A DNA stretch of 64,000 nucleotides from Parafrankia sp. EUN1f (GTDB lineage Bacteria; Actinomycetota; Actinomycetes; Frankiales; Frankiaceae). The stretch is taken from assembly GCF_000177675.1 (NCBI RefSeq), contig NZ_ADGX01000029.1, positions 1-64,000 of the forward strand, written 5' to 3'. The notes under the pieces are model-generated. The model was not told the origin of the DNA. It did not search any database and saw nothing but the letters and a program-made list of their open reading frames with translations. Shown here piece by piece: positions 37,446 through 57,896 of the stretch (positions within the stretch are counted from its first letter, which is position 1; every line of letters starts with the position of its first letter). The position numbers and the translations under genes are program-made.

Positions 37446-37488
37446 AGCTTCGTCTCCTCGACAGGATGCTTTATCAACGTGCCCAACA

Positions 37489-37503
37489 TGGCACGAGATG
37501 CCA
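37489..37503. promoter_or_regulatory. TGGCAC-N3-GTGCCA-type operator, site 1 (P450)
   Basis: tggcacgagatgcca: one mismatch from the perfect palindrome. Lies 44 bases upstream of the P450 start codon in a 197-base gap. Confidence 0.65.
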
Positions 37504-37642
37504 CGGGTCGTCCAGAATTAATGTTGTCGGCTAGCGCCGTCGCCGGCTTCGGCGGCCTCGGCAGCGGACAACCTGAATTGGATCCTTTGGAGCAGGCCGC
37601 GGATTGCGGTGGGCGGTCTGGAGTTCGCCGGCCGAACAAGGC

Positions 37643-38443
37643 CTAGTCAAGTAGATCGGGCTGCTCCTTGACGATGTGCTGGTAGTACGCTTCGAACCCC
37701 CAGCGTGCCAGGGTCTCGCCGCCGACCTGCCTGGCTGTGCGCTTGGCCGTCACGTCGTCGAGCAGCCGCAGCTTTCCTGCCGCCTGTGCGACGAGCTGCA
37801 CCTGGGCGGCCCGCTCGGCAGCGATGAACCAGTACGCCGCCGACTCCACGGTGGTGCCGACGGTCAGCAGTCCGTGATTGGCGAGGATCACCAGCTTGCC
37901 CGGGCCGAGTGCGCTGGCGATGCGCCGGCCCTCGTTGGTGCTGAGGACCACGCCGGTGAAGTCGTCGAAGATCGAATGTTCCTGATGGAACGCGCAGGCG
38001 TCTTGCGTGATCGGATACAGCGGCTCGCCGAGCACGGACAGTGCCTTGCCGTAGCGAGAATGAGTGTGCGCGGCGGCAACCACCTCCGGCCGGGCCGTGT
38101 GGACTTCCGAGTGGATCGCGAACGCCGCGGTGTTCAACGGCGGCCGCCCCTCCACGATCTCACCCTCGGCATTCACCAGAAGCAGACTCGAAACGCTGAT
38201 CCGGCGGAAGTCAACCCCGAAGCGGTTCACCCAGAAGTGGTCGGTCAACTCCGGGTCGCGGGCGGTGATATGTCCTGCGAGGCCTTCGCCGTATCCGAGC
38301 TGGCCAAAGATCCTGTAGGCGCCGGCGAGCCGCTGCTTGCGGTGCAGTCGCTCCTGTTCAAGGGTGCGCGCCGGCTCGGGACGAGGCCACTGGCCGTCGA
38401 TCGCAGGCGACACGAGCGCGCCGTCTAGCGGGGCAGCTGTCAT
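37643..38443 (-). CDS. Class II aldolase/adducin family protein
   Basis: 266 residues from the ATG at 38443, preceded by ggagg. The fold is indicated by LAGAYRIFGQLGYGEGLAGH, HITARDP, HSEVHTARPEVVAAAHTHSR (zinc-binding HxH) and LVILANHGLLTVGTTVESAA with a third His. The catalytic acid expected in aldolases is not obvious, and such proteins in catabolic clusters may be decarboxylases or hydrolases. It precedes the P450 on the same strand. Operator sites 2 and 3 lie upstream, in the gap shared with the VOC gene. Confidence 0.88.
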   Translation of the reverse strand: MTAAPLDGALVSPAIDGQWPRPEPARTLEQERLHRKQRLAGAYRIFGQLGYGEGLAGHITARDPELTDHFWVNRFGVDFRRISVSSLLLVNAEGEIVEGRPPLNTAAFAIHSEVHTARPEVVAAAHTHSRYGKALSVLGEPLYPITQDACAFHQEHSIFDDFTGVVLSTNEGRRIASALGPGKLVILANHGLLTVGTTVESAAYWFIAAERAAQVQLVAQAAGKLRLLDDVTAKRTARQVGGETLARWGFEAYYQHIVKEQPDLLD

Positions 38444-38631
38444 GGCGAATGCCTCCGGTGGCACTTTGCAGGTCGGGACGAGCTGAGCCGGCTGCGGTCG
38501 AAAGTGGCAACGCGCTGGACCACAAGGCGGCTGTGGATCTTGTCGAGCGCGACGCGTGCCTTGCGGAGCGCAAACGCCGCTCCGGTCCAGCGGTGGATGC
38601 CACGTCCGGCGGTGAGGAGGAGGCAGCAGCA

Positions 38632-38646
38632 CGGCACTGCATGCCA
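38632..38646. promoter_or_regulatory. TGGCAC-N3-GTGCCA-type operator, site 2 (aldolase side)
   Basis: cggcactgcatgcca: two mismatches from the perfect palindrome. About 190 bases upstream of the aldolase-family start. Confidence 0.5.
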
Positions 38647-38709
38647 CCCCTCGGGGAGGCAGGTCCGGAGCGTGGCATCCTGTGGGGCCTCTATCAGCAG
38701 TGAAGGGAA

Positions 38710-38764
38710 TTGCGATCTCTGGACAACGATGGCACGCAGTGCCATCGTTGTCCAGAGATCGCAA
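38710..38764. promoter_or_regulatory. 55-bp perfect palindrome containing operator site 3
   Basis: Arms 38710-38735 and 38739-38764 are exact 26-base reverse complements around a gca centre. The core 38730-38744 is the perfect operator tggcacgcagtgcca. The element sits in the divergent gap between the aldolase and VOC genes and ends only 12 bases before the VOC start codon, so in the VOC mRNA it would also form a strong hairpin next to the ribosome-binding site. It is far longer than the other copies of the motif. Confidence 0.85.
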
Positions 38765-38775
38765 GAGAGGTCCTG

Positions 38776-39153
38776 ATGCCTGCATACATCGTTCTCGATA
38801 GCCAAGATCCAGTACGTCTCGCCGACTTCTATGGCGCACTCCAAGGAGTCGAGACGCTGCTGACCTACGACGAGGGGCGGTATCACGCGATGGCGCCGAA
38901 CCGCGAGGGTCTGATGATCGTCCTGCAGCGGGTCCCCGAGGCCAAGGCGGGCAAGAACCGAGCGCATTTCGACCTCGTCGTCGACGACCTCGAGGCCGAG
39001 ACGGAGCGAGTCCTCGCGCTGGGCGGGACGTGGATCGAGCCTGGGAAGACGCACGAGCTGGAGACCTTCTCCTGGCGATGCATGGCCGACCCGGAAGGCA
39101 ACGAGTTCTGCCTTTACCTCCTGCCAGCGGGCATGAGCAACGATGCCTCCTAG
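38776..39153 (+). CDS. VOC (glyoxalase-like) family protein 1
   Basis: 125 residues from the ATG at 38776 (gagagg upstream). Vicinal-oxygen-chelate fold: IVLDSQDPVRLADFYGALQG at the start, RAHFDLVVDDLEAETERVLA in the middle and MADPEGNEFCLYLLP at the end, where the Glu of EFCL is the usual metal ligand. One VOC unit pair. Reaction unknown; in this context possibly epimerisation, isomerisation or ring-cleavage support in the catabolic pathway. Convergent with the TetR gene, overlapping by four bases. Confidence 0.88.
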   Translation: MPAYIVLDSQDPVRLADFYGALQGVETLLTYDEGRYHAMAPNREGLMIVLQRVPEAKAGKNRAHFDLVVDDLEAETERVLALGGTWIEPGKTHELETFSWRCMADPEGNEFCLYLLPAGMSNDAS

Positions 39154-39779
39154 CTGCCTTTGAACGACTCCCGGTCCAGTCGCCAACTGGACCGGGTGGT
39201 AGCAATGTCCAGCTCCGCGAGCGTGCGCGCCATGCGAAACGCGCGACGCACGAGCTCATTCAGATCAGCGGAGGCGTCACGCAGCCAACGCTCGTAGGCG
39301 GCGTTCGCGGCACCCAGTGAGACATGACCGATGAGCTGCGGCCCCAGTGCATCCTCTGGTTCGTCGAGCCGGCGTGCGGCGTACCGTGCGATCACAGCCA
39401 GCCATTCGGCGTTTCGGAGCGAGGCGTTCGCCTTCAGCGCGGGAGTGAGCAGGATCAGCTCCATGCGCTGTCGATGGGCGACCGGGCCGTCAGTGTTCGC
39501 CCGGTTGAAACGCATCACCCCCTCGGCAATGGCATCGAACATGGGTCGATCATCTGGCACCGACGCGAACCAGTCATCGAGTTCCTTCAGGAGCCCGGCG
39601 AAGTTTCCGAACAGGATGTCGTTTTTCGACGCGAAGTACCGGAAGAAGGTTCGCCGTGAGACGCCGGCCGCATTGGCGATCTCCTCGACCGTGACGTCCT
39701 GGAAGCCGCGCGCGGCGATCATCTCCAGGGCGGCTTTCTCGATGGCCTCGACCGATGTCTGTTGGGGTGTGGGGGTCAC
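39150..39779 (-). CDS. TetR-family transcriptional regulator (candidate regulator of the TGGCAC regulon)
   Basis: 209 residues from the GTG at 39779, preceded by ggaag; an upstream GTG at 39869 gives 239 residues. The DNA-binding HTH reads ALEMIAARGFQDVTVEEIAN, AAGVSRRTFFRYFASKNDIL, close to the MftR-like group with FFRYFxSKxD. The C-terminal ligand domain is unlike any I can name. It is divergent from the amidohydrolase at 40080, and the gap between them holds operator sites 4 and 5, so autoregulation and control of the catabolic operons are likely. This link is inferred from position. Confidence 0.9.
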   Translation of the reverse strand: MTPTPQQTSVEAIEKAALEMIAARGFQDVTVEEIANAAGVSRRTFFRYFASKNDILFGNFAGLLKELDDWFASVPDDRPMFDAIAEGVMRFNRANTDGPVAHRQRMELILLTPALKANASLRNAEWLAVIARYAARRLDEPEDALGPQLIGHVSLGAANAAYERWLRDASADLNELVRRAFRMARTLAELDIATTRSSWRLDRESFKGS

Positions 39780-39947
39780 AGAGCTCTTCCGTCTCGCGCC
39801 ACAGCCCGGGTCCTCGCCACACGAGCGAGGGCGGTCCGTGAGCAGGGTCTTCCTATCATCGCGCGACACCGAGGGCCCCTAGCCGGCCGCGCGTTCTCAC
39901 CCAGTGTCGTATCCGTCATATGCCAGGAAGATTCTATCCTTCAGGGC

Positions 39948-39962
39948 TGGCACGCAGTGCCA
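39948..39962. promoter_or_regulatory. TGGCAC-N3-GTGCCA operator, site 4
   Basis: tggcacgcagtgcca, a perfect palindrome identical to the core of site 3. In the divergent gap between the TetR and amidohydrolase genes. Confidence 0.75.
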
Positions 39963-40024
39963 TCCAGATCTACGTAGCTCGGCTGCGATCTTGCCAACTG
40001 GCAGGCGTGAGGTCGCGGCCGAGC

Positions 40025-40039
40025 TGGCACTGAGTGTCA
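40025..40039. promoter_or_regulatory. TGGCAC-N3-GTGCCA-type operator, site 5
   Basis: tggcactgagtgtca, one mismatch. It lies 41 bases before the amidohydrolase start and overlaps the expected promoter position. Centre-to-centre distance to site 4 is 77 bases. Confidence 0.65.
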
Positions 40040-40079
40040 TTTCGCACTACAGTGTTCTCAACCGGGCGGAAGGAGCGTC

Positions 40080-41450
40080 ATGCCGCAGGTCGCATCCGAA
40101 CAGAGTGAGCGCTACATCGTGGTGTCGACTGACAGCCACGTCGGCCCGTCGGTCGCGGGTCAGTTGCGGGACTACTGCGAGGCGAAGCACCTCGATGACT
40201 TCGATCGGTTCGTCGCGGAGATGGAGGGCCATGGACTGCTCTCGTGGCGGTCGTCGGAGGCCGCGAAGCCCGGCGAGGAGGAGAGCTGGTCGCTCGGTAG
40301 GTCCCGCGCGGAGCTGGGCAAGGAGCAGGCCGCCGCGTTCGGCAAGGTCGCGGGGATCCGCAACGCCGACCAGGTCGACCGGGGTTTTCTTCAGCGAAGC
40401 TACGAGGCTAGTCTGGTTCCAGGTTTGCAGAATCATGCCGCGCGCATCGCCGACATGGACAGGGCGGGCACCGCGGCGTCCGTTATCTACCATGGAGGCC
40501 TCAACGGCCAGTCCATCCCGTTCTCGACCACCGGCCTGATCTCCTGGGGGAACTCCAGCTACAACCACCTCGAGCCAGCCGGTGTCCGGATCTACAACCG
40601 GTGGCTCGCCGATTTCGTCTCCGAGTCCCCAGAACGCCATGCTGGCATCGCGCACATACCGATTTCCGACCCGGAAGCCTGCGTGCGTGAAGTCGAGTGG
40701 GCGGCCGCAGCAGGTCTGAAAGGGATCAACCTGCCGGCGCCTCGCAGCGACCTGCCGATGCTCAATGACCCCGTCTGGGAACCGCTCTGGGCGGTGTCTG
40801 AGGAGACGGGGCTCTCGCTCAACACGCATGGTGGCGGTGGGGAGCATTACCCCTACAAGGGCCCCGGCGCCCAGTCCATGTACATGATGGAAACTACTTG
40901 GCGTACCCGCCGGGGGGTCTGGGTGATGATCCTCGCTGGCGTCTTCGCCCGGCATCCCACACTGAAACTCGTGATGACCGAACAGTGGATGGACTGGGCG
41001 CCACAGGTCATGGCCGACATGGACGGCCTCTACTCCGGGCCCGGTGGATCGGCGCTGCGTGCGACATTGCCCGAGAGGCCCTCCACGTACTTCCACCGCA
41101 ACTGCTTCATCGGCGCGAGCTTCATGGCCAACTGGGAAGCGAAGTTCGGCGTCGAACACAACCTCGTGGCGAACACGATGTGGGGAGACGACTACCCGCA
41201 CGCCGAAGGTACCTGGCCTCACACCCGGGAGGCGATGCGGTCGACGTTCTGGGACATCGACCCAGAGCACACCCGCCGCTATCTCGGTGACACGGCGATC
41301 GAGGTCTACGGTCTCGACCGCGCCAAGCTGCGGGCGGTCGCGGACCGCATCGGCCCAACGCCCGACGAGATCGCCAACCCATTTACTCCCGCTGAGGACG
41401 AAGCCGTCGGCCTATACGCATTCCGCGAAGGCCCGGGAATCTTCGCCTAG
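40080..41450 (+). CDS. Amidohydrolase-2 family (ACMSD-like TIM-barrel) protein
   Basis: 456 residues. The N-terminal metal site is altered (VVSTDSHVGPS instead of DxDxHxxE). SLNTHGGGGEHYPY, FARHPTLKLVMTEQWMDW and NTMWGDDYPHAEGTWPHTRE supply the later His and Asp ligands of the family. Such proteins are metal-dependent hydrolases or decarboxylases, often in aromatic or steroid-like catabolism. First gene of the plus-strand operon 40080-48668, starting after operators 4 and 5. ggaagg lies upstream of the ATG. Substrate unknown. Confidence 0.88.
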   Translation: MPQVASEQSERYIVVSTDSHVGPSVAGQLRDYCEAKHLDDFDRFVAEMEGHGLLSWRSSEAAKPGEEESWSLGRSRAELGKEQAAAFGKVAGIRNADQVDRGFLQRSYEASLVPGLQNHAARIADMDRAGTAASVIYHGGLNGQSIPFSTTGLISWGNSSYNHLEPAGVRIYNRWLADFVSESPERHAGIAHIPISDPEACVREVEWAAAAGLKGINLPAPRSDLPMLNDPVWEPLWAVSEETGLSLNTHGGGGEHYPYKGPGAQSMYMMETTWRTRRGVWVMILAGVFARHPTLKLVMTEQWMDWAPQVMADMDGLYSGPGGSALRATLPERPSTYFHRNCFIGASFMANWEAKFGVEHNLVANTMWGDDYPHAEGTWPHTREAMRSTFWDIDPEHTRRYLGDTAIEVYGLDRAKLRAVADRIGPTPDEIANPFTPAEDEAVGLYAFREGPGIFA

Positions 41451-41483
41451 ACGACCAGACGCGCGCACGCTGAGGAGATCGAG

Positions 41484-42341
41484 ATGACTGCAAACCCGGC
41501 GACTTCACCGTCACCGCCATGCCGGTCGGTGACGGAAGAGGAGATCGATCATCTTCGCGAGTTCGGCTGGGTCAAGCTGAAGCGCTTCGTGGATCCGCAG
41601 TACCTGCGCTCGATGCTCGATCTTGCCCGTGAGGTGATGGGAGAGGACGCCGACAGCAACCCCATCTCCCCTGTCCTGGAAGCTGCCGTCACCGAGGGCA
41701 AGCCCGGTCTCTCGTACTTCAACGCCCAGCGCAGCTTCGGTCTGGCCCACCCCGTGCTGCGCCCGCTGATCTTCGAAATCGGCAGGAGCGCGAAGCTGCT
41801 GCAGCGACGGCGCAGCGCGGACGGGGCCGGCGTCGACGTCCGCTACTACTCGGACTTTTTCGTACCTAAGCTACCCGCGGCGAAGGCCGCGCGCCACGGC
41901 GGCAACGGGCCTACCGCCTATCACCAGGACTTCATCACCTTCGCCGTCGACCGATCCGGCGGCATGACCTTCTGGATCCCGCTGGAGCCCTGTGGGCCGC
42001 CCGCGGGAACGATGTCATTCGTCAGCGGCTCCCACCGCGAAGGCGTACTGGGCGATTACACCTGCTACGGCGACGGAGACGCCCTGGACGTCTTCCCCGA
42101 ACTCCGCCGGCTTGAGATGTCCGAGCATATGACCTATGAGCTCGGCGACATCACCGTCCACACCCACCTGACCATCCACGGCAGCGGGCCCAATATGACC
42201 GACCGCCCCCGGTGGACCTACCTCCTCGTCACACAGCCGGCTGACGCCTGCTGGAACGGCTCGCCCTGCCCGAACTTCGACTCAAGCGATATGACGCCCT
42301 GGCAGCCGTTCGGTGGCGGACGTTTCCCGGTCATCAGCTGA
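41484..42341 (+). CDS. Phytanoyl-CoA dioxygenase (PhyH) family protein
   Basis: 285 residues; ATG 41484 with gaggag upstream. A non-haem Fe(II)/2-oxoglutarate oxygenase is indicated by AYHQDFITFAVDRSGGMTFW (HxD iron ligands), ETGT-like PAGTMSFVSGSHREGVLGDY and the distal His in DITVHTHLTIHGSGPNMTDR followed by RW for 2-oxoglutarate. It hydroxylates an unknown substrate in the cytosol. 33 bases after the amidohydrolase. Confidence 0.9.
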   Translation: MTANPATSPSPPCRSVTEEEIDHLREFGWVKLKRFVDPQYLRSMLDLAREVMGEDADSNPISPVLEAAVTEGKPGLSYFNAQRSFGLAHPVLRPLIFEIGRSAKLLQRRRSADGAGVDVRYYSDFFVPKLPAAKAARHGGNGPTAYHQDFITFAVDRSGGMTFWIPLEPCGPPAGTMSFVSGSHREGVLGDYTCYGDGDALDVFPELRRLEMSEHMTYELGDITVHTHLTIHGSGPNMTDRPRWTYLLVTQPADACWNGSPCPNFDSSDMTPWQPFGGGRFPVIS

Positions 42342-42352
42342 AAGGGAAGCCA

Positions 42353-42913
42353 GTGATCCCTGCCCTCTTAACCAACCGCAGTTTCATGCAGGTGTGCTGG
42401 GTCGTGCCCGACCTCCATGCGGCCATTGACGCATGGGTCGGGTCCGCCGGCGTCGGTCCGTTCTTCTGGTTCGACGGGGTGGCGTTCGCGGACGGCCACC
42501 ACCGCGGTGAGCCAGCGGCCTTCCCCGCGGTCAGAGCCGCGATCGCCTACGCCGGCGACCTCCAGGTCGAGCTTGTGTGTCAGGACAACGACGATCCTGG
42601 CGTGTTTCGAGACGTATTCCGCCGGGGTGAGGGCGGCGTGCACCACCTGGCCATCACCTGCACCGACTACGAAGCCGAGCGCGACGCCTACCTCGCAGCA
42701 GGAGCCGTCCTGGCCTTCGAAGGGGTCACTGGCACGAGCCGTACGTGCTGGATCGACACCAGCCCAACCTTGGGATTCATGATCGAACTTTTGGAGCCGA
42801 GCGAGACGCGAGAGGCCTGGTTCTCGACCATGCGCGCGGCTGCGCGTACCTGGGACGGCTCCGACGCCATTGTCGTTCCCGGTGCGGGGACTACTGAGAT
42901 CGCCCGACACTGA
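42353..42913 (+). CDS. VOC (glyoxalase-like) family protein 2
   Basis: 186 residues; GTG 42353. The N-terminal half (MQVCWVVPDLHAAIDAWVGS, GVGPFFWFDGVAF) and the C-terminal half (GGVHHLAITCTDYEAERDAY, SPTLGFMIELLEPS) form the two babab units of a VOC protein, with His and Glu ligand positions present. This GxGPFFxF pattern occurs in VOC proteins within actinobacterial catabolic clusters. Its stop overlaps the ligase start by one base. Confidence 0.87.
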   Translation: MIPALLTNRSFMQVCWVVPDLHAAIDAWVGSAGVGPFFWFDGVAFADGHHRGEPAAFPAVRAAIAYAGDLQVELVCQDNDDPGVFRDVFRRGEGGVHHLAITCTDYEAERDAYLAAGAVLAFEGVTGTSRTCWIDTSPTLGFMIELLEPSETREAWFSTMRAAARTWDGSDAIVVPGAGTTEIARH

Positions 42914-44568
42914 TGCATCCGACCGATCACACCGCGACTTTTCCAGCTCTGCTCGCCGAGATGGTCGCGTCGCGCAGCGAACACCCGGCAGTGATCCACG
43001 GCGAGGAGGTGCTGACCTATCGTCAGCTGGAGCGCCGGTCAGGCGAGATGGCGCGGGCGTTGCTCGCCAGCGGCGTCGGCAAGGGCACTCGGATCGCTCT
43101 GCTCGCACCCGATGGCGCCCTGTGGCTGACCACCTTCTACGCGGCGCTGCGGATCGGGGCCCTAGTTACTCCGATCAGCACGCTGACGACGCCTCCGGAG
43201 CTGGCTCACATCCTGCGGACCAGCGATGCGCAGATTCTGATCGGCGCGCGCCGTTTCCTGCGCCGCGACTTCGCCAAGAACCTGACCGCGGCGCTTCCAG
43301 GGCTGGCCGCTGGTACCGCGGGTGCGCTCCGTCTGCAGTGCGCCCCGCACCTGCGCTCCGTGTGGCTCCAGGACGGTGACGGGCTCTCCTGGGCTGCGCC
43401 GGTCAGCGATCTACTCGCGCGCGCCGCGCTGCCCGGCGCTCCTGATGACGATCTGCTCGCGGCCGTGGAGCGTGAGGTCTCGCCCGCCGACGACGCGCTC
43501 GTCGTCTATACCTCGGGGAGCACCGCGACTCCCAAGGCCGTGGTTCACGGGCAGTGGGCGGTAGCGTGCCAGCCGCGGGCTCTCGCCCGGTACTTCCTGC
43601 TGACCGACGCGGACCGTACCCTGTGCCTGCTTCCCGCCTTCTGGATGGGGGGTATCGCAGCCGCGCTACAGGTCCTGAGTACCGGCGGGACGCTGATCTA
43701 TCCGCGCTCGCCCGACATCGCGGACGCCATCGAGATGATCGAGCGGCACAGCGTCACCTATGTCGTCGTCTGGCATGTGCTGCCGAGGCTGCGAGCGGCC
43801 GCTGTCGCCCGGGGCATCGACGTCGACGCGATCCGCGGCATGGGCGGGCCACCTCGTCGGGAGAACGGTGAACTCATTCCCCCGGGCCTGCGTGCCAACC
43901 TGCTCGGGATGTCCGAAAGCTTCTCCATGCACAGCGCCGAACCCATCAACCAGCGCATGCCCGATGACAAGACCGGCTCCTGTGGGCGTGGTGTGAACGG
44001 GATAGAGCGGCGGGTTGTCAGCCCGGACACCGGCGTTGAGGTTCCCCCCGGCGAGGTGGGCGAGCTTCAGCTGCGCGGGGGCGCGTTGATGACCGGCTTC
44101 TACAAAGTCGAACGGCGCACGGTGTTCACGGCCGACGGGTTCTACCCCACCAAAGACCTGGTGCGCATCGACGCGGATGGCTACGCCTACTTCGTCGGCC
44201 GCACCGGAGACATGATCAAGACGAATTCGGCAAATGTGTCCCGCCTTGAGGTGGAAGCGGCGCTGCGCGCGCTGCCCGAGGTGGACGTGGCGTTGGTCGC
44301 GGGCCTCCCGGATCCGGAGTTCGGCGAGATCGTCGTCGCGGCGGTCGTCCCGGCACCGGACACGAACCCGACAGCCGAGGGTATCCGCGCGACGCTGCGT
44401 GAACGGTTGTCCAGCTTCAAGATCCCACGACGCGTCGTGTTTATCACGCACAATGACGTCCCCCTTACGGAGACAGGAAAAGTCCGGCTGTCCGAGCTCA
44501 GGGAAATCATCCCATCCTGGTTCTCGGAGCCACCGCGGGTGGACCGAGACACAGCAGAGATTCACTGA
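42913..44568 (+). CDS. Acyl-CoA ligase (AMP-binding family) 1
   Basis: 551 residues of the adenylate-forming superfamily. The P-loop is ALVVYTSGSTATPKAVVHG. LLPAFWMGGIAAALQ, LLGMSESFSMHSAEP, GFYPTKDLVRIDADGYAYFV and GRTGDMIKTNSANVSRLEVE follow in order, ending with the catalytic lysine in VPLTETGKVRL. It activates a carboxylic acid as its CoA thioester via acyl-AMP. In this operon it likely starts beta-oxidation of the substrate side chain or ring-derived acid. Confidence 0.92.
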   Translation: MHPTDHTATFPALLAEMVASRSEHPAVIHGEEVLTYRQLERRSGEMARALLASGVGKGTRIALLAPDGALWLTTFYAALRIGALVTPISTLTTPPELAHILRTSDAQILIGARRFLRRDFAKNLTAALPGLAAGTAGALRLQCAPHLRSVWLQDGDGLSWAAPVSDLLARAALPGAPDDDLLAAVEREVSPADDALVVYTSGSTATPKAVVHGQWAVACQPRALARYFLLTDADRTLCLLPAFWMGGIAAALQVLSTGGTLIYPRSPDIADAIEMIERHSVTYVVVWHVLPRLRAAAVARGIDVDAIRGMGGPPRRENGELIPPGLRANLLGMSESFSMHSAEPINQRMPDDKTGSCGRGVNGIERRVVSPDTGVEVPPGEVGELQLRGGALMTGFYKVERRTVFTADGFYPTKDLVRIDADGYAYFVGRTGDMIKTNSANVSRLEVEAALRALPEVDVALVAGLPDPEFGEIVVAAVVPAPDTNPTAEGIRATLRERLSSFKIPRRVVFITHNDVPLTETGKVRLSELREIIPSWFSEPPRVDRDTAEIH

Positions 44569-44610
44569 TCGTCACCGATCTGAGTTCCACGAGTCACAGG
44601 AGCAACGCAC

Positions 44611-45585
44611 ATGGCTGAGGCAACGGGGCGTCCTTCCGCCGAGGAGATCGTGTTGTACGAGAAAGACCCGGACACACGTATCGCCACGATCACCCTGGAC
44701 CGCGCTGACGAGCTCAACGCCATGACGATCGACGCCCAGCACCGCTACGCCGACCTGATCCGGCAGGCCGGCATCGACGACGAAGTCAAGGTGCTAGTCA
44801 TCCGGGCTAACGGACCCAACCTGGGTAGCGGCGCTGACCTACCGGAGCTGATGGACATCATGGCTCGCCGCGGCGACGTCACGATGAAGCACATTGTTCG
44901 GATCCCCGAGGACGCCGACGTCGAGTACCCGCGGACGGGCACTTATCGCTACGGGGCGTCGAACGTGCAGTTCTACACGGATCCGAGCGCCGGGATGCGA
45001 AGCCTTCAGGATTTCAAGAAGATCAGCATCCTCGAGGTCCGCGGCTACTGTTACGGCTGGCACTTCTACCAGGCAGCCGATGCCGATATCGTCATCTCCG
45101 CCGAGGACGCCCTGTTCGGCCACGCCGCGTTCCGCTACGCCGGATTCGCGGCCCGACAGTGGCAGTGGTGCTCGATGATGGGTATTCGCAAGTTCATGGA
45201 GATGGTCTTCACCGGCCGGCCGTTCACCGCCAAGGAGATGTACGACTGCGACTTCGTCAACGCCGTCGTGCCGTTCGACGAGCTCGAGGCGATGACGGCC
45301 AAGTACGCGCTCGCGTGCGCACGCTCACGGCCGACCGACACGGTGTTCGTCCAGAAGACCTTCTTCGAAATCTTCAAACAGCACCAGGGTGAATACATGG
45401 GCAGCATCCTTTCCGGGCTTCTGGAGTCGACCGGGCGCCTGCTGCGACCCGACGGTGAAGGGCTTGAAATCAACCGGGAGACCCTCGACCGCGGGCTAAC
45501 GGGCGCCGTCCGCGACAATGACGAGCGCTTTCCACCCGAGTGGCGCCTCAGCCGGCGCGGCCGCGGCGACGCCCCGCAGGTGTGA
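44611..45585 (+). CDS. Enoyl-CoA hydratase/isomerase family protein 1
   Basis: 324 residues. Crotonase fold: TITLDRADELNAMTIDAQHR, RANGPNLGSGADLPELMDIM (oxyanion-hole region) and EVRGYCYGWHFYQAADADIV. The second oxyanion segment is atypical (GYCYGWH in place of G-x-GxGxx) and no usual catalytic Glu pair is evident, so it may catalyse another crotonase reaction such as ring cleavage or dehalogenation. An insert of about 40 residues follows the first motif. In the same operon as the ligase. Confidence 0.87.
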   Translation: MAEATGRPSAEEIVLYEKDPDTRIATITLDRADELNAMTIDAQHRYADLIRQAGIDDEVKVLVIRANGPNLGSGADLPELMDIMARRGDVTMKHIVRIPEDADVEYPRTGTYRYGASNVQFYTDPSAGMRSLQDFKKISILEVRGYCYGWHFYQAADADIVISAEDALFGHAAFRYAGFAARQWQWCSMMGIRKFMEMVFTGRPFTAKEMYDCDFVNAVVPFDELEAMTAKYALACARSRPTDTVFVQKTFFEIFKQHQGEYMGSILSGLLESTGRLLRPDGEGLEINRETLDRGLTGAVRDNDERFPPEWRLSRRGRGDAPQV

Positions 45586-45586
45586 A

Positions 45587-46888: not shown

Positions 46889-47640
46889 CGGGCGACGCCG
46901 CGTCGAGAAAAGTTGCTTTTATCACTGGCGCCGGTTCGGGCATCGGCCGGGCGGCGGCGCAGGCGTTCTTGCGCCGCGGGTATGCCACTGTGCTCGCCGA
47001 CGTGAACGAGCAGGCCGGGCAGGAGGCCCAGGGCGAACTCGGCGCGCTGGGAGAATGCATCTATGTCCGCTGCGATGTGGCGGATGACGACACGGTGCGG
47101 GCCGCCGTCGACACCGCCGTGGCCGCCTACGGACGGTTGGACGCGGCTTTCAACGCCGCGGGCATCGACGGCGAACAGGGCAAGCTCGTCGCCGAGTCGA
47201 GTCTGGAGAACTGGAACCGCGTCATCGCGGTCGATCTCACGGGCACCTGGTCCTGCATGCGTTATCAACTGCCTGCGCTGTTGGCATCGGGGGGCGGTGC
47301 CATCGTGAACTGCGCCTCGGTCGCGGGAATCCGGGCCGCACCGACGGTCTCCGCCTACACCGCCGCCAAGCACGGGGTTGTGGGGCTCACACGGGCGGCG
47401 GCTCGCGAGTATGCCTCCCGCGGGGTGCGCGTGAATGCCCTGTGCCCGGGGACCGTCGACACGCCGATGTTCCGGGCGTCCATGTCGGAGGAGACAATCG
47501 AACGTCTCATTCGCGCCAATCCGTCCGGCCGCGTCGCCGAAGCGCGCGAGATCGCCGACACGGCGGTCTGGCTGTGCACCGATGCGCCGGCATACCTCAC
47601 CGGTCAGGCCATCGCCGTTGACGGAGCAGCCGGCGCCTGA
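46885..47640 (+). CDS. Short-chain dehydrogenase/reductase
   Basis: 251 residues; GTG 46885. Classical SDR: AFITGAGSGIGRAAAQAFLR, NAAGID, NCASVAGIRAAPTVSAYTAA followed by KHG (Ser-Tyr-Lys), RVNALCPGTVDTPMF and the terminal TGQAIAVDGAAG. All catalytic residues are present. Probably oxidises a hydroxyl produced by one of the oxygenases in the cluster. Confidence 0.92.
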   Translation: MTGDAASRKVAFITGAGSGIGRAAAQAFLRRGYATVLADVNEQAGQEAQGELGALGECIYVRCDVADDDTVRAAVDTAVAAYGRLDAAFNAAGIDGEQGKLVAESSLENWNRVIAVDLTGTWSCMRYQLPALLASGGGAIVNCASVAGIRAAPTVSAYTAAKHGVVGLTRAAAREYASRGVRVNALCPGTVDTPMFRASMSEETIERLIRANPSGRVAEAREIADTAVWLCTDAPAYLTGQAIAVDGAAGA

Positions 47641-47785
47641 CCCGGCTGCCGGGTGGATCCAAGGCGCGATCCGTGGCGCCAACTTCCACCTGATGAACCC
47701 GCGTGCCACCAGGCCAGCTGGATCATTCTCGCATCGAGTTGCTACCGGAAGGCCGAAGCCCACCAGTGAGCTAGAAAGGACCGCG

Positions 47786-48199
47786 ATGCATCGCATTCTG
47801 TTGAGCACCTTCGTCATCGACACCCCCGGGCAGGCCCGTGACCAGACGGTGGCTTTCTGGTCGGCGGCGTTGGGTGCAGAAGCACATGCCACCAAACTTC
47901 CGGCGTACCATATTCTCGCGGACGCGGCTGATCCCAACCGCATTGTTGTCCAGGATGTCGGCCCCGGCGCGGCCGGCGTCCATTTCGACATCCACACCGA
48001 CGATCTCGAGGGCGAGGTCAAGCGCCTCGTCGACTGCGGCGCCACGGTCGTCGACGCGTCGTGGGCGAACCATCCAGGGCGCTGGGTGATCATGCGGGAC
48101 CCGGCCGGCATGGAGTTCTGCGTGGTGTTCGCGCTGAACGAACTGCGCCCGCAGGCCGACCGCGACGAATTCGAACGTCGGGCCAAGGTCGTTGGTTGA
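47786..48199 (+). CDS. VOC (glyoxalase-like) family protein 3
   Basis: 137 residues; ATG 47786 with aaagga upstream, after a 145-base gap. ILLSTFVIDTPGQARDQTVA and FWSAALGAEA open the fold; AGVHFDIHTDDLEGEVKRLV and VIMRDPAGMEFCVVF (Glu ligand) close it. It resembles the glyoxalase-like group of actinobacterial VOC proteins. Substrate unknown. Confidence 0.87.
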   Translation: MHRILLSTFVIDTPGQARDQTVAFWSAALGAEAHATKLPAYHILADAADPNRIVVQDVGPGAAGVHFDIHTDDLEGEVKRLVDCGATVVDASWANHPGRWVIMRDPAGMEFCVVFALNELRPQADRDEFERRAKVVG

Positions 48200-48668
48200 T
48201 CTGGTGACACCGCCGACGGACGATGCCGCTGAGATCATCCACCTGTGTGCTGTGTACGCGCTCAAAATGTCCCAGGGCGATATTCACCACATCATCGAGC
48301 ATCTCATCACTCCGGACGGGAGCTACTCCGCGTTCGGTGACACGTACAGCCTCGCGGACTGGCCACGGCTGGTCGAGGCCGCGCCGAAGGGCCTGTTCCT
48401 CACCGGAGCACCTGTGCTCGATCTCGACGGTGACTCCGGAACGGGCGAGGTTCCCCTTCTCTTCATCGACCAGACCAACCACCGGATGCGCATGGGTTGG
48501 TACAGCGACACCTACCGTCGAACCGCGGACGGCTGGCGCCTCGTCACCCGGAAGATGACATTCCTCCGTCGTCACGGCGGCGCGGACTCGGGCATGCCCC
48601 ACGACCCGACCCGGCCGGCACCCACGGGGAAGGGAACATCCGTCACAGATGTGGCCGGTCTGGCCTGA
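48192..48668 (+). CDS. SnoaL/NTF2-like small protein
   Basis: 158 residues from the TTG at 48192, overlapping the previous gene by 8 bases; a GTG at 48204 is an equally good start. The alpha+beta barrel pattern is DDAAEIIHLCAVYALKMSQG, GSYSAFGDTYSLADW, NHRMRMGWYSDTYRRTADGW and RLVTRKMTFLRR. This resembles SnoaL-like/bile-acid dehydratase-type proteins, which isomerise or dehydrate small ring compounds. Last gene of the plus-strand operon; its stop codon lies at the base of the hairpin at 48664-48718. Confidence 0.75.
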   Translation: MVDLVTPPTDDAAEIIHLCAVYALKMSQGDIHHIIEHLITPDGSYSAFGDTYSLADWPRLVEAAPKGLFLTGAPVLDLDGDSGTGEVPLLFIDQTNHRMRMGWYSDTYRRTADGWRLVTRKMTFLRRHGGADSGMPHDPTRPAPTGKGTSVTDVAGLA

Positions 48669-48718
48669 TCGTCGTCGCCGTCGAGCCCGACCGCGAGCGG
48701 GCTCGACGGTCGATCAGG
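48664..48718. terminator. Bidirectional hairpin between converging operons
   Basis: An inner perfect 12-bp stem (48678-48689 with 48698-48709, 8-base loop) is flanked by an outer 8-bp stem (48664-48671 with 48711-48718). It spans exactly the gap where the plus-strand operon (ending 48668) meets the minus-strand operon (ending 48714). No long T-run is present, as usual for high-GC actinomycetes. Likely terminates both transcripts. Confidence 0.75.
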
Positions 48719-49844
48719 ATCTCGGCATGCCCAGAACGCGGTGGGCGATGAGGTTCCTCTGGATCTGGGCCGTGCCGCCCATGACGCTCTGAGCCCTGCT
48801 GTACAGGTACGTGGCAAGCATGCTGGCCCCGACCTCGTCGTGGGTGGCCCCGGCGATGTCGACGGCCGCGTGGCCCACGGTCTGCTCGACCGAGGTCATG
48901 AGAAGTTTGTCGATGGAGCCCTCGACGCCATGATCCAGGCCGTCGAGGCGCTCAGACAGCCGCCGGCTGACGAGGTGCGCCAGCATGTCGGACTCCACGA
49001 TCGCCCACGCGAGCTGCCGGAACTGCTCCGCGTCGTAGCCCGCGGGATCGTCGCGCAGGAACTTCTGCAACTGCTTCACGGTCTTGCGGTAGCGGCTGGC
49101 GTTGCCCAGCTCCTGCGGTTCGCGTTCGTGCGCCAGTACGGTCATCGCGACGGCCCACCCGTCGCCGGACGAGCCGATCATGTTGACCGCCGGGACGACC
49201 GCGGCGTCGAACGTGACCTCTCCGAACTCGCGGGCCACGCCGCTGATCATCTTCAGGGGTCGTTGGGTGATGCCCGGCTGGTTCATCGGGATCGCGAAGG
49301 CGGACAGGCCCCGGTGGCCGCGCGCGTCCGGATCTGTGCGGGCCAGCAGCAGGCACCAGTCGGCCACGTCCGAGTAGCTCGTCCAGACCTTGTGACCGGT
49401 CACGATGAACTGGTCACTGTCGCGCACAGCCCGGGTGCGCAGGGACGCGAGGTCGGAGCCCGCGTCGGGTTCGCTGAACCCCTGGCACCAGCGCGCCCGT
49501 CCGCTGATCAGATCGGGGAGGAACCTGTCTTTGACGTCGTCGTTCGCGTGCGCACAGATCGCTTGGACGAGGTAGCCGAGGTTGGGGCGCGGCGGCGCGT
49601 GGGCGGCCGCGAGCTCCTCGTCGACGATCACGTCATAGACGGTCGGCCTGTCGTGGCCACCGTAGCGGACCGGCCACGAAAGCCCGAAGAACCCGGCTCG
49701 ATACAGAGACCGGTGCCATTCGGGCTGCTTTTCCCAGTACTCGTCCGAGGTGGACGAGGCGGGCAGATGCGGGTTGTTCTCGCCGAGCCAGGCCCGCAGC
49801 CGCACGCGGAACCGGGCCTCCTCGGCCGAGTCGGCGAAGTCCAT
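48714..49844 (-). CDS. Acyl-CoA dehydrogenase, subunit 1 of a coupled pair
   Basis: 376 residues. The ATG at 49844 overlaps the stop of the upstream acyl-CoA dehydrogenase gene (ATGA). FAD-dependent family motifs: WCQGFSEPDAGSDLASLRTR, GHKVWTSYSDVADWCLLLAR, and the C-terminal QSVMGGTAQIQRNLIAHRVL. Members with this partner arrangement often form alpha2-beta2 heterotetramers, as the FadE pairs in mycobacterial sterol catabolism. Predicted to desaturate an acyl-CoA intermediate. Confidence 0.92.
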   Translation of the reverse strand: MDFADSAEEARFRVRLRAWLGENNPHLPASSTSDEYWEKQPEWHRSLYRAGFFGLSWPVRYGGHDRPTVYDVIVDEELAAAHAPPRPNLGYLVQAICAHANDDVKDRFLPDLISGRARWCQGFSEPDAGSDLASLRTRAVRDSDQFIVTGHKVWTSYSDVADWCLLLARTDPDARGHRGLSAFAIPMNQPGITQRPLKMISGVAREFGEVTFDAAVVPAVNMIGSSGDGWAVAMTVLAHEREPQELGNASRYRKTVKQLQKFLRDDPAGYDAEQFRQLAWAIVESDMLAHLVSRRLSERLDGLDHGVEGSIDKLLMTSVEQTVGHAAVDIAGATHDEVGASMLATYLYSRAQSVMGGTAQIQRNLIAHRVLGMPRS

Positions 49845-50839
49845 CAGAGATGACCTCCCAGGCCGGCGTGCTCGAGCACGCGCGCCAGGTTGGGACCGAC
49901 GCCACCGAGTACGTCGGTCGCGAGCAGGGTGCGACGCAGGTACACATGCGCGAGGCACTCCCAGGTGTTCCCGATGCCGCCGTGCACCTGGATGCAGGTC
50001 TCGCAGACCAGCCGTGCGCCGCGCGCGGCGTAGGCCTTGGCGGAGGCGGCGGCCGCGACGGCATCCGGCGGGGCAAGCGAGTCGACGCCCCACGCCGCGT
50101 ACAGCAGCGCTGCCCGCGCACCCTCGATCTGGACGAGAGCGTCAGCGAGCAGGTGCGCCACCGCCTGGAAGGAGCCGATCTGCTTCCCGTACTGGACGCG
50201 CTGCCCGGCGTAGGTCACGGCGAGATCCAGCGCACCCCTCATCGAGCCGACGAGGTCGGCCGTGGTAATCGTGAGAGCGAGGGCGGTCCAGCGCTGCCGG
50301 TCGGCTTCCGTCAGCGACCCGACCGTGACCGCTTCTGTGTTCGGGATCAGCGCCATCGGCCGGGTGAGGTCGATCGAACCGGCCTTCTCGTGTAGCCCCG
50401 CGGCGACGAGGGTGCCATCCGCGGCGAGCAGCAACGCCGACCCGGCGTCGCGGGCGTCGATCGCGAGCGCCGGCTCACCCGGCGATGCTAGGGCGGCGAG
50501 GTTGCGGCGCAGGCCGACCGTCTCGCGGTCAACGGCCTGCGAAGCTCGCGCGAGACGCCGGAGCTCCATGGCCAGCGTCGGCCCGAGGAACGGCGCGTCC
50601 GCGAGCCCGCGCCCGAGCTCCTCGGCGACGATGGCGACTTCGACCCCCGACGCAATGGGGCCGCCGCGATCGTCGGGTGCGCGTAGCTCCCGCCATCCCG
50701 AGCTCTCGACGGCCTCGTCGAGCGCGGCCGCCCTCCTCTCGTCGGCGAGATCGGCAACCGCCCGTGACCCGAGCCGATCGATCACACGGCGCGCGGCCTG
50801 GCACAGTGCCCGCTGCTCAGCGGTGTATCGAACGTCCAT
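49844..50839 (-). CDS. Acyl-CoA dehydrogenase, subunit 2 of a coupled pair
   Basis: 331 residues, a shorter and more divergent acyl-CoA dehydrogenase. The middle domain is degraded compared with its neighbour (EPALAIDARDAGSALLLAAD). The C-terminal helical part is well kept: LVGSMRGALDLAVTYAGQRV, QYGKQIGSFQAVAHLLADAL and QVHGGIGNTWECLAHVYLRR. It probably pairs with the protein at 48714-49844 as a heteromeric enzyme. ATGA overlap with it. Confidence 0.9.
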   Translation of the reverse strand: MDVRYTAEQRALCQAARRVIDRLGSRAVADLADERRAAALDEAVESSGWRELRAPDDRGGPIASGVEVAIVAEELGRGLADAPFLGPTLAMELRRLARASQAVDRETVGLRRNLAALASPGEPALAIDARDAGSALLLAADGTLVAAGLHEKAGSIDLTRPMALIPNTEAVTVGSLTEADRQRWTALALTITTADLVGSMRGALDLAVTYAGQRVQYGKQIGSFQAVAHLLADALVQIEGARAALLYAAWGVDSLAPPDAVAAAASAKAYAARGARLVCETCIQVHGGIGNTWECLAHVYLRRTLLATDVLGGVGPNLARVLEHAGLGGHL

Positions 50840-50891
50840 CAGAACGCGCCGGTCGCGGCTGCGCGCCGCCTGGGCTCCGGGTGGCCCATGG

Positions 50892-52262
50892 TCACGTCAG
50901 ATACGTATCGAGCGTGGCGTGGAAGTGCCGTATCCGGCTTTCCTGATAGAGCGCCAGGGTGGTCCTGGCGGCCACCGAGGCGCGCAGGCCACGCTGGATG
51001 CGTCCCATCGTCACCCCGTCCTGGTTGAAGACACGACCGAACACCCCCAGTTCAGGCGCGCTGGTCCAGCTTTCGTCGTCGCGCAGAACCCGCGTCGGCG
51101 CGGGGCGCGGCCGGACGCCGCCCTCGGGCAGCGGCTCCAGGACCATGATGTCGATCACGCAGGACTCGGGATCGTTGCCATGGGGCCGGAACCGGTACGC
51201 GAACGAGGTGAGCAGGCCTGCCCAGGGCATGAAGTTCGGAAAGAGGAGGTACTCGATCCCGTCGAGGAGCTCCGCGTCACTCACGGCTGAATAGTCGCGC
51301 CCGGTGCGTGCGGCCAGCGACTTTCGCACCCGCGCGGCGAGGGTGCTCCTCGCGTTCGCTCCCGGTTCGATGGTGACCTCGGCGTCGCGTGAGCCCAGCA
51401 TCCTGCGCACGATGGCGACGTCGTCGGGCGGATCCTCGAGATGGTCGCTGCTCACACCGACAGCAGTGATCATTCGGCTCACGTGTTGCCCGTAGACGTC
51501 GTACTCACTCAGCGAGTCAGCCGCCGTCGGCAACAGCTGGGGGTGTGTCGCCATGGTGTGGTAGGCCTCGATGAACGCCTCCAGCGCAACCTTCCAGTTA
51601 CAGGGCATGACACGCACGATGTGAGCTTTGAGGTAGCGGTCCTCCAGCGGCCACCGCGCGAAGTGCCACGGCAGGGTCTCGAGGTATTCGCCGAGGGGGG
51701 CCGCGTCTTGGTCGATGTTCACGAAGACGAACCCGCCCCACGTCGCGACCTGGGCCTGGGGAAGGCAGAAGCCGGTTCGGTCGATGTGGGGGAAGTCCCA
51801 TGCCGAGGGAATCTCGCTGAGCGTCCCGTCGAGGTTCCAGGTGAATCCGTGGAAGGGGCACCGGATGTTACTCAGAGGTCCCCCTTTCGTGCGCAGCTGT
51901 GTTCCTCGGTGCAGGCAGGAGTTGTGATAAGCCCTGATGTCATCGGGTGCCGCGCGCAGGACGATGAGTGACCAGTCGGCGATGTCGTAGACGATCGAGT
52001 CCCCGACCTCGGGGATCTGCTCTTCCCGGCAGGCCATCTGCCACGTGTGGCCCCAGACCTTGTCGACCTCGCGCCGATGGAACTCCGGGTCGAAGTAGCG
52101 CGTCGGCGCGATACCTCCCGGCTCCGTGTAGCCAGCCGAGACCGCACGCAGGCTCTCCGGCACCGGACGCGTCTCCGCATCCAGCAACCGCTGGTAGAAG
52201 TGCTGGCCGCGGGCAATCCCGTCGGGCGCGCGTTCCTGGGACAGCGCGTCTGATGTGGTCAC
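50892..52262 (-). CDS. Rieske non-haem iron ring-hydroxylating oxygenase, alpha subunit
   Basis: 456 residues from the GTG at 52262 with ggagga upstream. The Rieske [2Fe-2S] site is CLHRGTQLRTKGGPLSNIRC followed by PFH. The mononuclear iron site is ALEAFIEAYHTMATHP with two His. It hydroxylates an aromatic or polycyclic substrate using electrons from a reductase; no reductase or beta subunit is adjacent, as for many KshA-like or homomultimeric oxygenases. Third gene of the minus-strand operon. Substrate unknown. Confidence 0.92.
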   Translation of the reverse strand: MTTSDALSQERAPDGIARGQHFYQRLLDAETRPVPESLRAVSAGYTEPGGIAPTRYFDPEFHRREVDKVWGHTWQMACREEQIPEVGDSIVYDIADWSLIVLRAAPDDIRAYHNSCLHRGTQLRTKGGPLSNIRCPFHGFTWNLDGTLSEIPSAWDFPHIDRTGFCLPQAQVATWGGFVFVNIDQDAAPLGEYLETLPWHFARWPLEDRYLKAHIVRVMPCNWKVALEAFIEAYHTMATHPQLLPTAADSLSEYDVYGQHVSRMITAVGVSSDHLEDPPDDVAIVRRMLGSRDAEVTIEPGANARSTLAARVRKSLAARTGRDYSAVSDAELLDGIEYLLFPNFMPWAGLLTSFAYRFRPHGNDPESCVIDIMVLEPLPEGGVRPRPAPTRVLRDDESWTSAPELGVFGRVFNQDGVTMGRIQRGLRASVAARTTLALYQESRIRHFHATLDTYLT

Positions 52263-52299
52263 GTTCGCTCCTCCTTCACCCGTTGGGGACCTCGGGTCG

Positions 52300-52764
52300 T
52301 CAGTCCGCCGGAAGCAGCACCGGCAGCAGGGCTCGGTCGACGATCTCCACATACAGCCCGCCGCGCGCACGCAGATAGGTGCACATCGGCGGCCGGTCGT
52401 CTCTGAGCGCGATCGACGCAGTGAACATCCACCCGAGCGCTTCCAGGGCCTCGGTCGCGGCCGCCAGGTCGTCGACCCAGTAGCCAAGGTGATGAGCGTG
52501 GCCCGGGGCCACGGCCGTCCACAGCGTTCCCTCGATGGACTGGACAAGTTCGATGTGGTGTGTGCCTTCTCGAGACAGGACGTAGGCGGTGGAGACCGCG
52601 CGCGTCCCCTCGCAGGTGCGCAGCCGCACGTTGGCACCGCCCTCATACCAGGTCACGCCGAGCGCAGAGCCGAGTTCTTCTCTGCCGGCGTCAAGGTCAT
52701 CGACGACGATGCCGGTGTGAAAAAGATCCTCGGACCGCAAAATGCCGGCCACGGTATTTGTCAC
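52300..52764 (-). CDS. VOC (glyoxalase-like) family protein 4
   Basis: 154 residues; the ATG at 52764 is 22 bases after the ligase stop. EDLFHTGIVVDDLDAGREEL, THHIELVQSIEGTLWTA, HAHHLGYWVDDLAAATEALE and GGLYVEIVDRALLPVL form the two VOC units with His and Glu ligands. Similar to methylmalonyl-CoA-epimerase-like VOC proteins. Within the Rieske/acyl-CoA dehydrogenase operon. Confidence 0.87.
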   Translation of the reverse strand: MTNTVAGILRSEDLFHTGIVVDDLDAGREELGSALGVTWYEGGANVRLRTCEGTRAVSTAYVLSREGTHHIELVQSIEGTLWTAVAPGHAHHLGYWVDDLAAATEALEALGWMFTASIALRDDRPPMCTYLRARGGLYVEIVDRALLPVLLPAD

Positions 52765-52786
52765 AGGTTCAGTCGATCCTTTGCCA

Positions 52787-54442
52787 TCAAGGAGAGTCGA
52801 GCATCCTGCACCTTGGTTCCGCTGTGGTTGAGCGGGATCTCACCGTCGGCAAAAAAATAACCTTCTTGGGCACCTTGTAGCTTGCCAACCGTTCCCGCAG
52901 GAACGAGGTTATCTCCTGTTCTGTGGCCTCCGATCCGTCTTTCAACTCGACACAGAGAACCACGATCTGGTCCAGGCGGTCGTCCTGGATACCTATCACT
53001 CGTGCGAGTCTGACGGGTTCGAAGGCGTGGAGTTGGAGCTCGATTTCCGCTGGGGACACGTTCGCACCACCCGTTTTGATCACCTCAGTGCGGCGACCAG
53101 AGAAATAGACGTTGCCATCCTCGTCGTAGAAGCCCAGATCTCCGGTGTGGAAGAAGCCTTCGAGATCGAAACACTGCGAGCGCGTTCGCTTCACATACCG
53201 TTCCATGAGTGTCGGCCCACGAACGATGATCTCGCCCTGTTCCCTGACCCCGAGAACCTGGCCTGTCCCGGGGTCGATCACTCGCAGCTGGCTTCCCGGA
53301 AGCACACGCCCGTAGGAACCACCCCGTAGCTTTTCCCGCGGTGTGTCGCTCGGGAATCCGGTGAAGAACGACGAGGTCTCCGACATGCCGTAGCCGACGG
53401 GCATGTTCCAGGTCACGTCGCCACTGACCGTCGGGTGGCGGGTGAACACGGACTTACCGAAAACCTTGGTACATGACGAGAGATCGGTGTCCGGCCAGCG
53501 GGGATCCTCCTCGAGCGCCCGCGCCTGGTGAGCGAAGGCGTGCGGCTCGGTCACCCGTTCTCGTTCCAGGAGCCGCAGGGCCTGGCCCGATTCGAACCGC
53601 TCCTGCATGACCCACGTTCCGCCCGCCGCTATCGTCGCTCCCATCGCGGCGTTGAGACCTGCCGTCCAGAACAGCGGGAGAGGGCTCCAGACCCGCGTAG
53701 CCGAGTCCCGCCCGAAGAGCCTGGCCTGCATCCACCACTGCAGCGCGACCGCCTGATGCGCGTGGAGAACCCCTTTGGGGCGGTCGGTCGTCCCGGAGCT
53801 GTAGATGATGGTCGCAGGGTCGGACGGGTCGACTTGATCCTCGACCGCATTGAGCAACACGTCGCTCACCGCGTTACCGCGGTCGAGGAAGGTGTCCCAG
53901 CTCTGGAGGCCTCCGGACTCCGCTGGGGGCCCGAATACCGCGACGTGGCGGAGGAAGGGGTAGGAGGGGTCCCAGACCTGCCCCGCGCCTGACGCGGCCG
54001 GGCAGAGCTCGACGAGGTCGGCGGCGAACCGGCGGCGCCCCATCGATGTCTGCGCGAGCAGCACAGCCACGTCGGAATGGGCCATCAGGTAGGACAACTC
54101 GGGCCCAGGCGAGAAGGTCGAGAGGGGCACGGCGACCGCCCCGGCGAGCGCCACCCCGAACAGCGAGGCCACGGCTTCGGGGCGGTTTCCCATAAGGATC
54201 CCGACGTGCGTGCCCTTGCTGGTGCCGGACGCGATGAGCGCCTTCGCGACCCGCCGGGCCTGGTCGGCGAGATCGCGATAGGTCCAACGCACCGTTCCGT
54301 CGAACAACGGGTCGTCGAAGACCAGCGCCTCGTGACCGGGAAATGCCGCTGCCTGATCGGTGAGGACTCGGCCAAGAGTGAGCGCGCCGACGTCGGGTGC
54401 CTCCCGTAACGGCGGGCCGCTGAGCGTTCCGGACTCTGACAC
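52787..54442 (-). CDS. Acyl-CoA ligase (AMP-binding family) 2
   Basis: 551 residues from the GTG at 54442. ATIIYSSGTTDRPKGVLHAH is the P-loop (SSGTT). PLFWTAGLNAAMGATIAAGG, VGYGMSETSSFFTG, GFFHTGDLGFYDEDGNVYFS and GRRTEVIKTGGANVSPAEIE follow. The C-terminal lysine motif is degenerate: the last strand ends in KVIFLPTVRSRSTTAEPRCR, without the usual TxTGK, suggesting a frame change or altered end. First gene of the minus-strand operon; operators 6 and 7 are upstream. Activates a carboxylic acid. Confidence 0.9.
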   Translation of the reverse strand: MSESGTLSGPPLREAPDVGALTLGRVLTDQAAAFPGHEALVFDDPLFDGTVRWTYRDLADQARRVAKALIASGTSKGTHVGILMGNRPEAVASLFGVALAGAVAVPLSTFSPGPELSYLMAHSDVAVLLAQTSMGRRRFAADLVELCPAASGAGQVWDPSYPFLRHVAVFGPPAESGGLQSWDTFLDRGNAVSDVLLNAVEDQVDPSDPATIIYSSGTTDRPKGVLHAHQAVALQWWMQARLFGRDSATRVWSPLPLFWTAGLNAAMGATIAAGGTWVMQERFESGQALRLLERERVTEPHAFAHQARALEEDPRWPDTDLSSCTKVFGKSVFTRHPTVSGDVTWNMPVGYGMSETSSFFTGFPSDTPREKLRGGSYGRVLPGSQLRVIDPGTGQVLGVREQGEIIVRGPTLMERYVKRTRSQCFDLEGFFHTGDLGFYDEDGNVYFSGRRTEVIKTGGANVSPAEIELQLHAFEPVRLARVIGIQDDRLDQIVVLCVELKDGSEATEQEITSFLRERLASYKVPKKVIFLPTVRSRSTTAEPRCRMLDSP

Positions 54443-54463
54443 GCCAGCCACTCTAACCAGAGA

Positions 54464-54478
54464 TGACACCCGGTGCCA
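54464..54478. promoter_or_regulatory. TGGCAC-N3-GTGCCA-type operator, site 6
   Basis: tgacacccggtgcca, one mismatch. It is 21 bases upstream of the ligase start on the minus strand. Confidence 0.65.
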
Positions 54479-54479
54479 T

Positions 54480-54497
54480 AGTGCTGGCTGCAGCACT
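54480..54497. promoter_or_regulatory. Additional inverted repeat between operators 6 and 7
   Basis: agtgctg and cagcact are 7-bp perfect arms around a gctg loop, placed between the two operator copies. Possibly part of a larger regulator footprint or a small RNA stem. Confidence 0.4.
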
Positions 54498-54518
54498 GGT
54501 TTTGGTGAGCCAATTCCC

Positions 54519-54533
54519 TGGCACCCGGTGCCA
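54519..54533. promoter_or_regulatory. TGGCAC-N3-GTGCCA operator, site 7
   Basis: tggcacccggtgcca, a perfect palindrome. Centre-to-centre 55 bases from site 6, in the divergent gap between ligase 2 and the SDR at 54623. Confidence 0.75.
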
Positions 54534-54622
54534 GGATGCGTCTAGTCTCCGCGGCAGACCGAAGGCGCGGCAGCCCGGCCCTGACCGGGCCTGGGTACCG
54601 CAGGACGCGAGGAGGAGAACAA

Positions 54623-57763: not shown

Positions 57764-57840
57764 CACCACGCTCCTCTCATAACCAGCCCGACGACAACCA
57801 TCTTGACTCTCCGACGGGCAGTCGACACACTTCGAAAATG

Positions 57841-57860
57841 AATCGATCGGTCGATCTATT
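57841..57860. promoter_or_regulatory. Palindromic operator in the TetR/AveC-like divergent gap
   Basis: aatcgatcggtcgatctatt is symmetric at 16 of 20 positions (core atcgatcggtcgat). It is distinct from the TGGCAC motif. Placed 78 bases upstream of the TetR start and 36 bases before the AveC-like start, fitting repression of both. Confidence 0.65.
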
Positions 57861-57896
57861 AAGTGGACCGGTTGTGGGACTGATGGAGGCAGTGTC

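Follow-up and report, generated by a model that had tools for sequence, protein, structure and literature searches.

TetR-type proteins of the KstR and KstR2 kind are local regulators that act on repeated palindromes in the divergent promoters of actinobacterial catabolic clusters, with CoA thioesters as effectors. The mycofactocin repressor MftR (msmeg_1420/Rv0691c) has a TetR fold, an MftR C-terminal domain and a segment of the RRTFFRYF type, and its palindrome is TGGCAC-N3-RTGCCA. The footprint of MftR in M. smegmatis is 5'-TCCATTCTGGCACTCGATGCCATATAT, the footprinted operator is TGGCACTCGATGCCA and the effectors of MftR are long-chain acyl-CoAs (PMC8728441).

The window, a stretch of 64,000 nucleotides from Parafrankia sp. 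EUN1f, carries a catabolic island (36246-55555) which shares features with both systems. As with the KstR and KstR2 type, a local TetR gene is accompanied by repeated palindromes in the divergent promoters of a degradation cluster. The operator is different, however, and the match of the local TetR to the KstR profile is marginal (19.7 bits, cut-off 280). By its sequence the palindrome is the known MftR operator and not a new one, which corrects the preliminary description. The local TetR shares the fold, C-terminal domain and recognition segment of MftR but, unlike MftR, its gene belongs to a degradation island in which there are several operator pairs. A search of open-licence papers found no account of catabolism under the control of an MftR paralogue. 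It is likely that the seven palindromes are the operators of this MftR-like TetR, a paralogue of the mycofactocin repressor which would control a single island.

Palindrome sites in the window and the genome

Seven copies of TGGCAC-N3-GTGCCA, three of them perfect, had been proposed to outline a catabolic regulon. All seven 15-mers were located at the positions given (Table 1) and the three perfect copies were confirmed. Three further copies have one mismatch and one has two. All seven lie in promoter gaps as described, on condition that GTG 54442 is the true start of the ligase ORF, whose frame extends to 54496.

Table 1. Features of the catabolic island, with positions in the window.
Feature	Position	Strand	Comment
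Cytochrome P450	36246..37445	-	Operator 37489 upstream
Operator TGGCACGAGATGCCA	37489..37503	none	One mismatch; upstream of P450
Class II aldolase/adducin family protein	37643..38443	-	
Operator CGGCACTGCATGCCA	38632..38646	none	Two mismatches; aldolase/VOC divergent promoter; same place in 4/4 genomes
55-bp palindrome	38710..38764	none	26-bp perfect arms, 3-nt centre; centred on the 38730 operator
Operator TGGCACGCAGTGCCA	38730..38744	none	Perfect; aldolase/VOC divergent promoter
VOC/glyoxalase-like protein	38776..39153	+	
MftR-like TetR regulator	39150..39779	-	Frame open to 39869; likely start GTG 39779
Operator TGGCACGCAGTGCCA	39948..39962	none	Perfect; TetR/amidohydrolase divergent promoter
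Operator TGGCACTGAGTGTCA	40025..40039	none	One mismatch; amidohydrolase promoter
-10-like TACAGT	40048..40053	+	8 nt past operator, amidohydrolase operon; same offset in AiPa1 and P. colletiae
Operon: amidohydrolase-2, PhyH-like, VOC, CoA ligase, enoyl-CoA hydratase, amidohydrolase-1, SDR, VOC	40080..48199	+	Order kept in relatives
Operon: CoA ligase, Rieske oxygenase, two acyl-CoA dehydrogenases	48714..54442	-	Ligase start GTG 54442, probably leaderless
-10-like TAGAGT	54450..54455	-	8 nt past operator, ligase operon; kept in 4/4 genomes
Operator TGACACCCGGTGCCA	54464..54478	none	One mismatch; ligase promoter
Operator TGGCACCCGGTGCCA	54519..54533	none	Perfect; SDR promoter
-10-like TAGTCT	54543..54548	+	9 nt past operator, SDR gene; TAGTCT or TAGTGT in 4/4 genomes
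SDR oxidoreductase	54626..55555	+	Right end of conserved block

The genome-wide motif scan suggested in the preliminary description was run and gave a divided answer. When up to one mismatch is allowed, the 9.35 Mb genome has 28 sites, compared to 31 with the reversed-pattern control. This is chance level, so there is no genome-wide excess of the palindrome. The pattern search found three perfect copies in the genome and all are inside the catabolic block. Six of the 28 sites lie within 17 kb, where 0.04 would be expected (Poisson P ~6e-12). A three-mismatch scan within the window returned 52 sites compared to 45 expected. This is chance level and only the good copies are therefore informative.

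Three of the six block sites with at most one mismatch have a -10-like hexamer at 8-9 nt. No TANNNT hexamer was found at offsets of 0-2 and 7-10 nt at the 22 other genomic sites, of which at least 11 are probably coding, as judged roughly from GC3. A genome-wide regulon was rejected because these 22 sites are without a promoter-like -10 at the tested offsets.

Conservation across Frankiaceae

A search of 196 relatives yielded orthologues of the TetR, at 86-93% identity, in three genomes only, those of Frankia sp. AiPa1, Pseudofrankia asymbiotica and Parafrankia colletiae. No further orthologue came from a sample of 396 genomes of the phylum. An amidohydrolase search of the same 196 relatives confined close homologues to the four genomes with the close regulator orthologues. 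All three relatives have the catabolic block, and in these orthologous blocks six of the seven sites are found again at the corresponding promoters. The spacing of the site pairs is nearly constant over the four genomes (97-100, 77-78 and 54-55 bp). Invariant columns made up 66/72 (92%) of the half-sites, 7/18 of the spacer and 74/300 (25%) of the flanks. The half-site conservation has a P of ~1e-26.

Chance matches or a repeat element are a barely credible origin for the palindromes. The chance-level count of one-mismatch sites in the genome would fit such an origin, but the clustering, the half-site conservation and the fixed -10 spacing speak against it, and the flanks differ from site to site, so the sites are not a repeat element. 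It was rejected on the clustering together with the four-genome footprint.

The P450 site at 37489 is the least conserved, being identical in AiPa1 and degenerate in P. colletiae. In P. asymbiotica the P450 gene is relocated and is the first gene of the aldolase operon, behind the aldolase/VOC operator pair. This arrangement independently supports the proposed membership of the P450 in the regulon. So does a homologous operon in a genome of another family (G606), in which a P450 of 54% identity lies between the genes for SDR and VOC.

The 55-bp palindrome is single copy in each genome where it is present. Pairing was retained at 23-27 of 28 positions in three genomes, with co-varying arms in P. 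colletiae (27/28 paired). In P. asymbiotica 12/28 positions pair and the left arm is lost.

The MftR-like regulator

The TetR at 39150-39779 contains TetR_N and the MftR C-terminal domain (PF17754, TetR_C_14; 100.3 bits, cut-off 22.7). It scored 214.0 bits against TIGR03968, the MftR equivalog model, and an orthologue scored 204.6 bits; the cut-off is 224.9. Its recognition region VSRRTFFRYFASKND matches that of MftR proteins (commonly IGRRTFFRYFASKND) and in the helix alignment the RRTFFRYF segment is identical in most of the MftR proteins compared. It is encoded on contig 368, away from the mycofactocin cluster with mftC on contig 339, and is approximately 40% identical to the MftR of its own genome. 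In the tree all four paralogues group in a single clade (100/100). The stem of this clade is long (1.4 changes per site) and its place is among MftR sequences with weakly supported neighbors. On these profile and tree data the protein is a divergent MftR paralogue that falls narrowly outside the curated family. It could have acquired a different DNA preference even though the helix matches, as the score is under the cut-off and the stem is long.

The preliminary description had named this TetR as the best candidate regulator, with sites in its own divergent promoter. Two sites are present there and the choice is supported by the MftR-type helix, the own-promoter sites and the co-occurrence of block, regulator and sites. 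Since the palindrome of the cluster is the same as that of MftR, comparison of the sequences indicates that the cluster is very probably controlled by the MftR relative encoded inside it.

Binding by the second TetR of the window (57083-57898) or by an unseen regulator is very unlikely. The second TetR is 2.5 kb from the last site, but it has a different helix, TSSVLYHYF (ITSSVLYHYFPNKVE), its promoter is without a palindrome site and nothing corresponding to it turned up in the regions retrieved from the three relatives, which do keep the sites. It was rejected as the regulator on the differing helix and the missing counterpart. The 57083-59069 region, in which this gene is divergent from an AveC-like gene (PF17198), is just outside the conserved block and no palindrome is present at the promoter.

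The genome also carries an mft cluster on contig 339 together with a true MftR (L090:3920-4582), which scored 274.5 bits against TIGR03968. Elsewhere in the Frankiaceae, and in other families of the class, this operator also stands at MftR genes and mft operons. The true MftR could be the main protein bound at the island operators, with the island in the mycofactocin regulon and the local TetR having another target or none. The above-cut-off MftR, the mft cluster and the same or very similar operator and helix all favor this, but we consider it unlikely. Frankiaceae without the island also have MftR and mft genes, and their perfect sites are few, with several at mft or mftR loci, while in the island genomes sites flank the local regulator's own gene. 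No island SDR reached the mycofactocin-coupled cut-off. The mftA operator of the window's genome (L090:11262-11290) has a decayed left half (TAGCCACAGGTGCCA), with TAATGT kept 1 nt downstream, while the island sites are intact. At the corresponding place P. colletiae has TGGCGCTCGGTGCCA.

Promoter organization

A TANNNT hexamer was found 8-9 nt downstream of the operator in 14 of 50 oriented island flanks (8 nt, n = 10; 9 nt, n = 4), which represent four distinct promoters, as orthologous promoters are not independent. None of the 50 flanks had it at 1 nt and it was only sporadic elsewhere in the next 34 nt. Of the 36 distinct operators examined near MftR and mft genes of many genera, 27 are followed by a -10 hexamer at 1 nt; the 36 include three sites (L110-L112) not known to be MftR-associated. 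This 1-nt register is a regularity found in the present analysis and not a published criterion. The different register of the island promoters compared to the MftR/mft promoters is the new point. The 37489, 38632 and 38730 sites are without a clear -10.

In the island register the upstream half-site is at the -35 position with a spacer of 17-18 bp. Because the -10 starts 8-9 nt after the operator, the operator would span the -35 region. With a dimer bound, this region and the spacer would both be covered, an arrangement in favor of repression.

The reading frame of the CoA ligase extends up to GTG 54496, but the promoter and conservation point to a start at GTG 54442. The operator is located just upstream of GTG 54442, and TAGAGT lies 7-8 nt before this GTG in all four genomes. 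The ligase transcript is likely to be leaderless, as the in-frame GTG is 7 nt after the -10.

A further possibility, compatible with control by the local paralogue as an extension of it, is that every site is bound by both MftR and the paralogue, whose cross-regulation would link the synthesis of the cofactor with the catabolic pathway. The match of recognition helix and operator would allow this, and the mft promoters of AiPa1 and P. colletiae retain a one-mismatch operator. The -10 register differs between the two promoter classes, however, the mftA operator is degenerate in the window's genome and no mycofactocin-dependent enzyme was recognized in the island. Such cross-regulation is possible but rather doubtful.

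Gene content and history of the island

The island encodes a P450, a class II aldolase, VOC proteins, two amidohydrolases, a PhyH-like oxygenase and two CoA ligases. Enoyl-CoA hydratase, SDR, acyl-CoA dehydrogenase and Rieske oxygenase genes are also present. Among solved structures the amidohydrolase matched PtmU3 and DitZ and the Rieske protein matched ring-hydroxylating dioxygenases. By analogy there is a hint of a terpenoid- or aromatic-like, CoA-linked substrate.

DNA of the island operon is 92.6% identical to that of AiPa1, which belongs to another genus, compared to 79.5% for mftC. The G+C content of the island is 66%, with 71 and 69% on either side. The high island identity relative to mftC and the lower G+C content make transfer between genera likely, and on this sequence comparison the block has probably moved horizontally between Frankiaceae genera.

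In G606 the operon from amidohydrolase to VOC is present at 61-79% identity with a P450 inside. The 36 kb read there contains no close regulator paralogue, and every site has at least two mismatches. Three ORFs upstream of the operon were searched for a regulator domain and gave none. The promoter of this homologous operon (L148, L149; G606:C4) has a different palindrome, GCACATATTGGCCCAATGTGC.

Discussion

The earlier proposal that one regulon joins the two converging operons and the P450 is supported by the four-genome footprinting, the helix match and the co-occurrence of genes and sites, from which we infer binding. A dimer of the MftR-like TetR would bind TGGCAC-N3-GTGCCA. The operator would occupy the -35 region and some of the spacer at three promoters (amidohydrolase, ligase and SDR), with its centre at approximately -28 as judged from the -10 position. 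A dimer bound there should block RNA polymerase, and repression by occlusion is the most likely mechanism. The two sites in the regulator's divergent promoter imply autoregulation. A pathway metabolite probably releases the repressor. This is plausibly an acyl-CoA, as long-chain acyl-CoAs are ligands of MftR and two CoA ligase genes are present in the island. More tentatively, a copy of MftR may have been captured by a mobile island and have kept the mycofactocin operator, with shared sites, cross-regulation and a register that lets the two promoter classes differ; we regard this as possible but rather doubtful.

With this analysis a palindrome of no assigned function becomes a named operator that can be tested, and an uncharacterized degradation island of Frankiaceae gains a likely regulator with its regulon and a promoter geometry. 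If control by the local paralogue is true, the MftR operator is used beyond mycofactocin synthesis and the operator alone therefore cannot assign genes to the mycofactocin regulon. The distance from operator to -10 may distinguish island-type from mft-type promoters.
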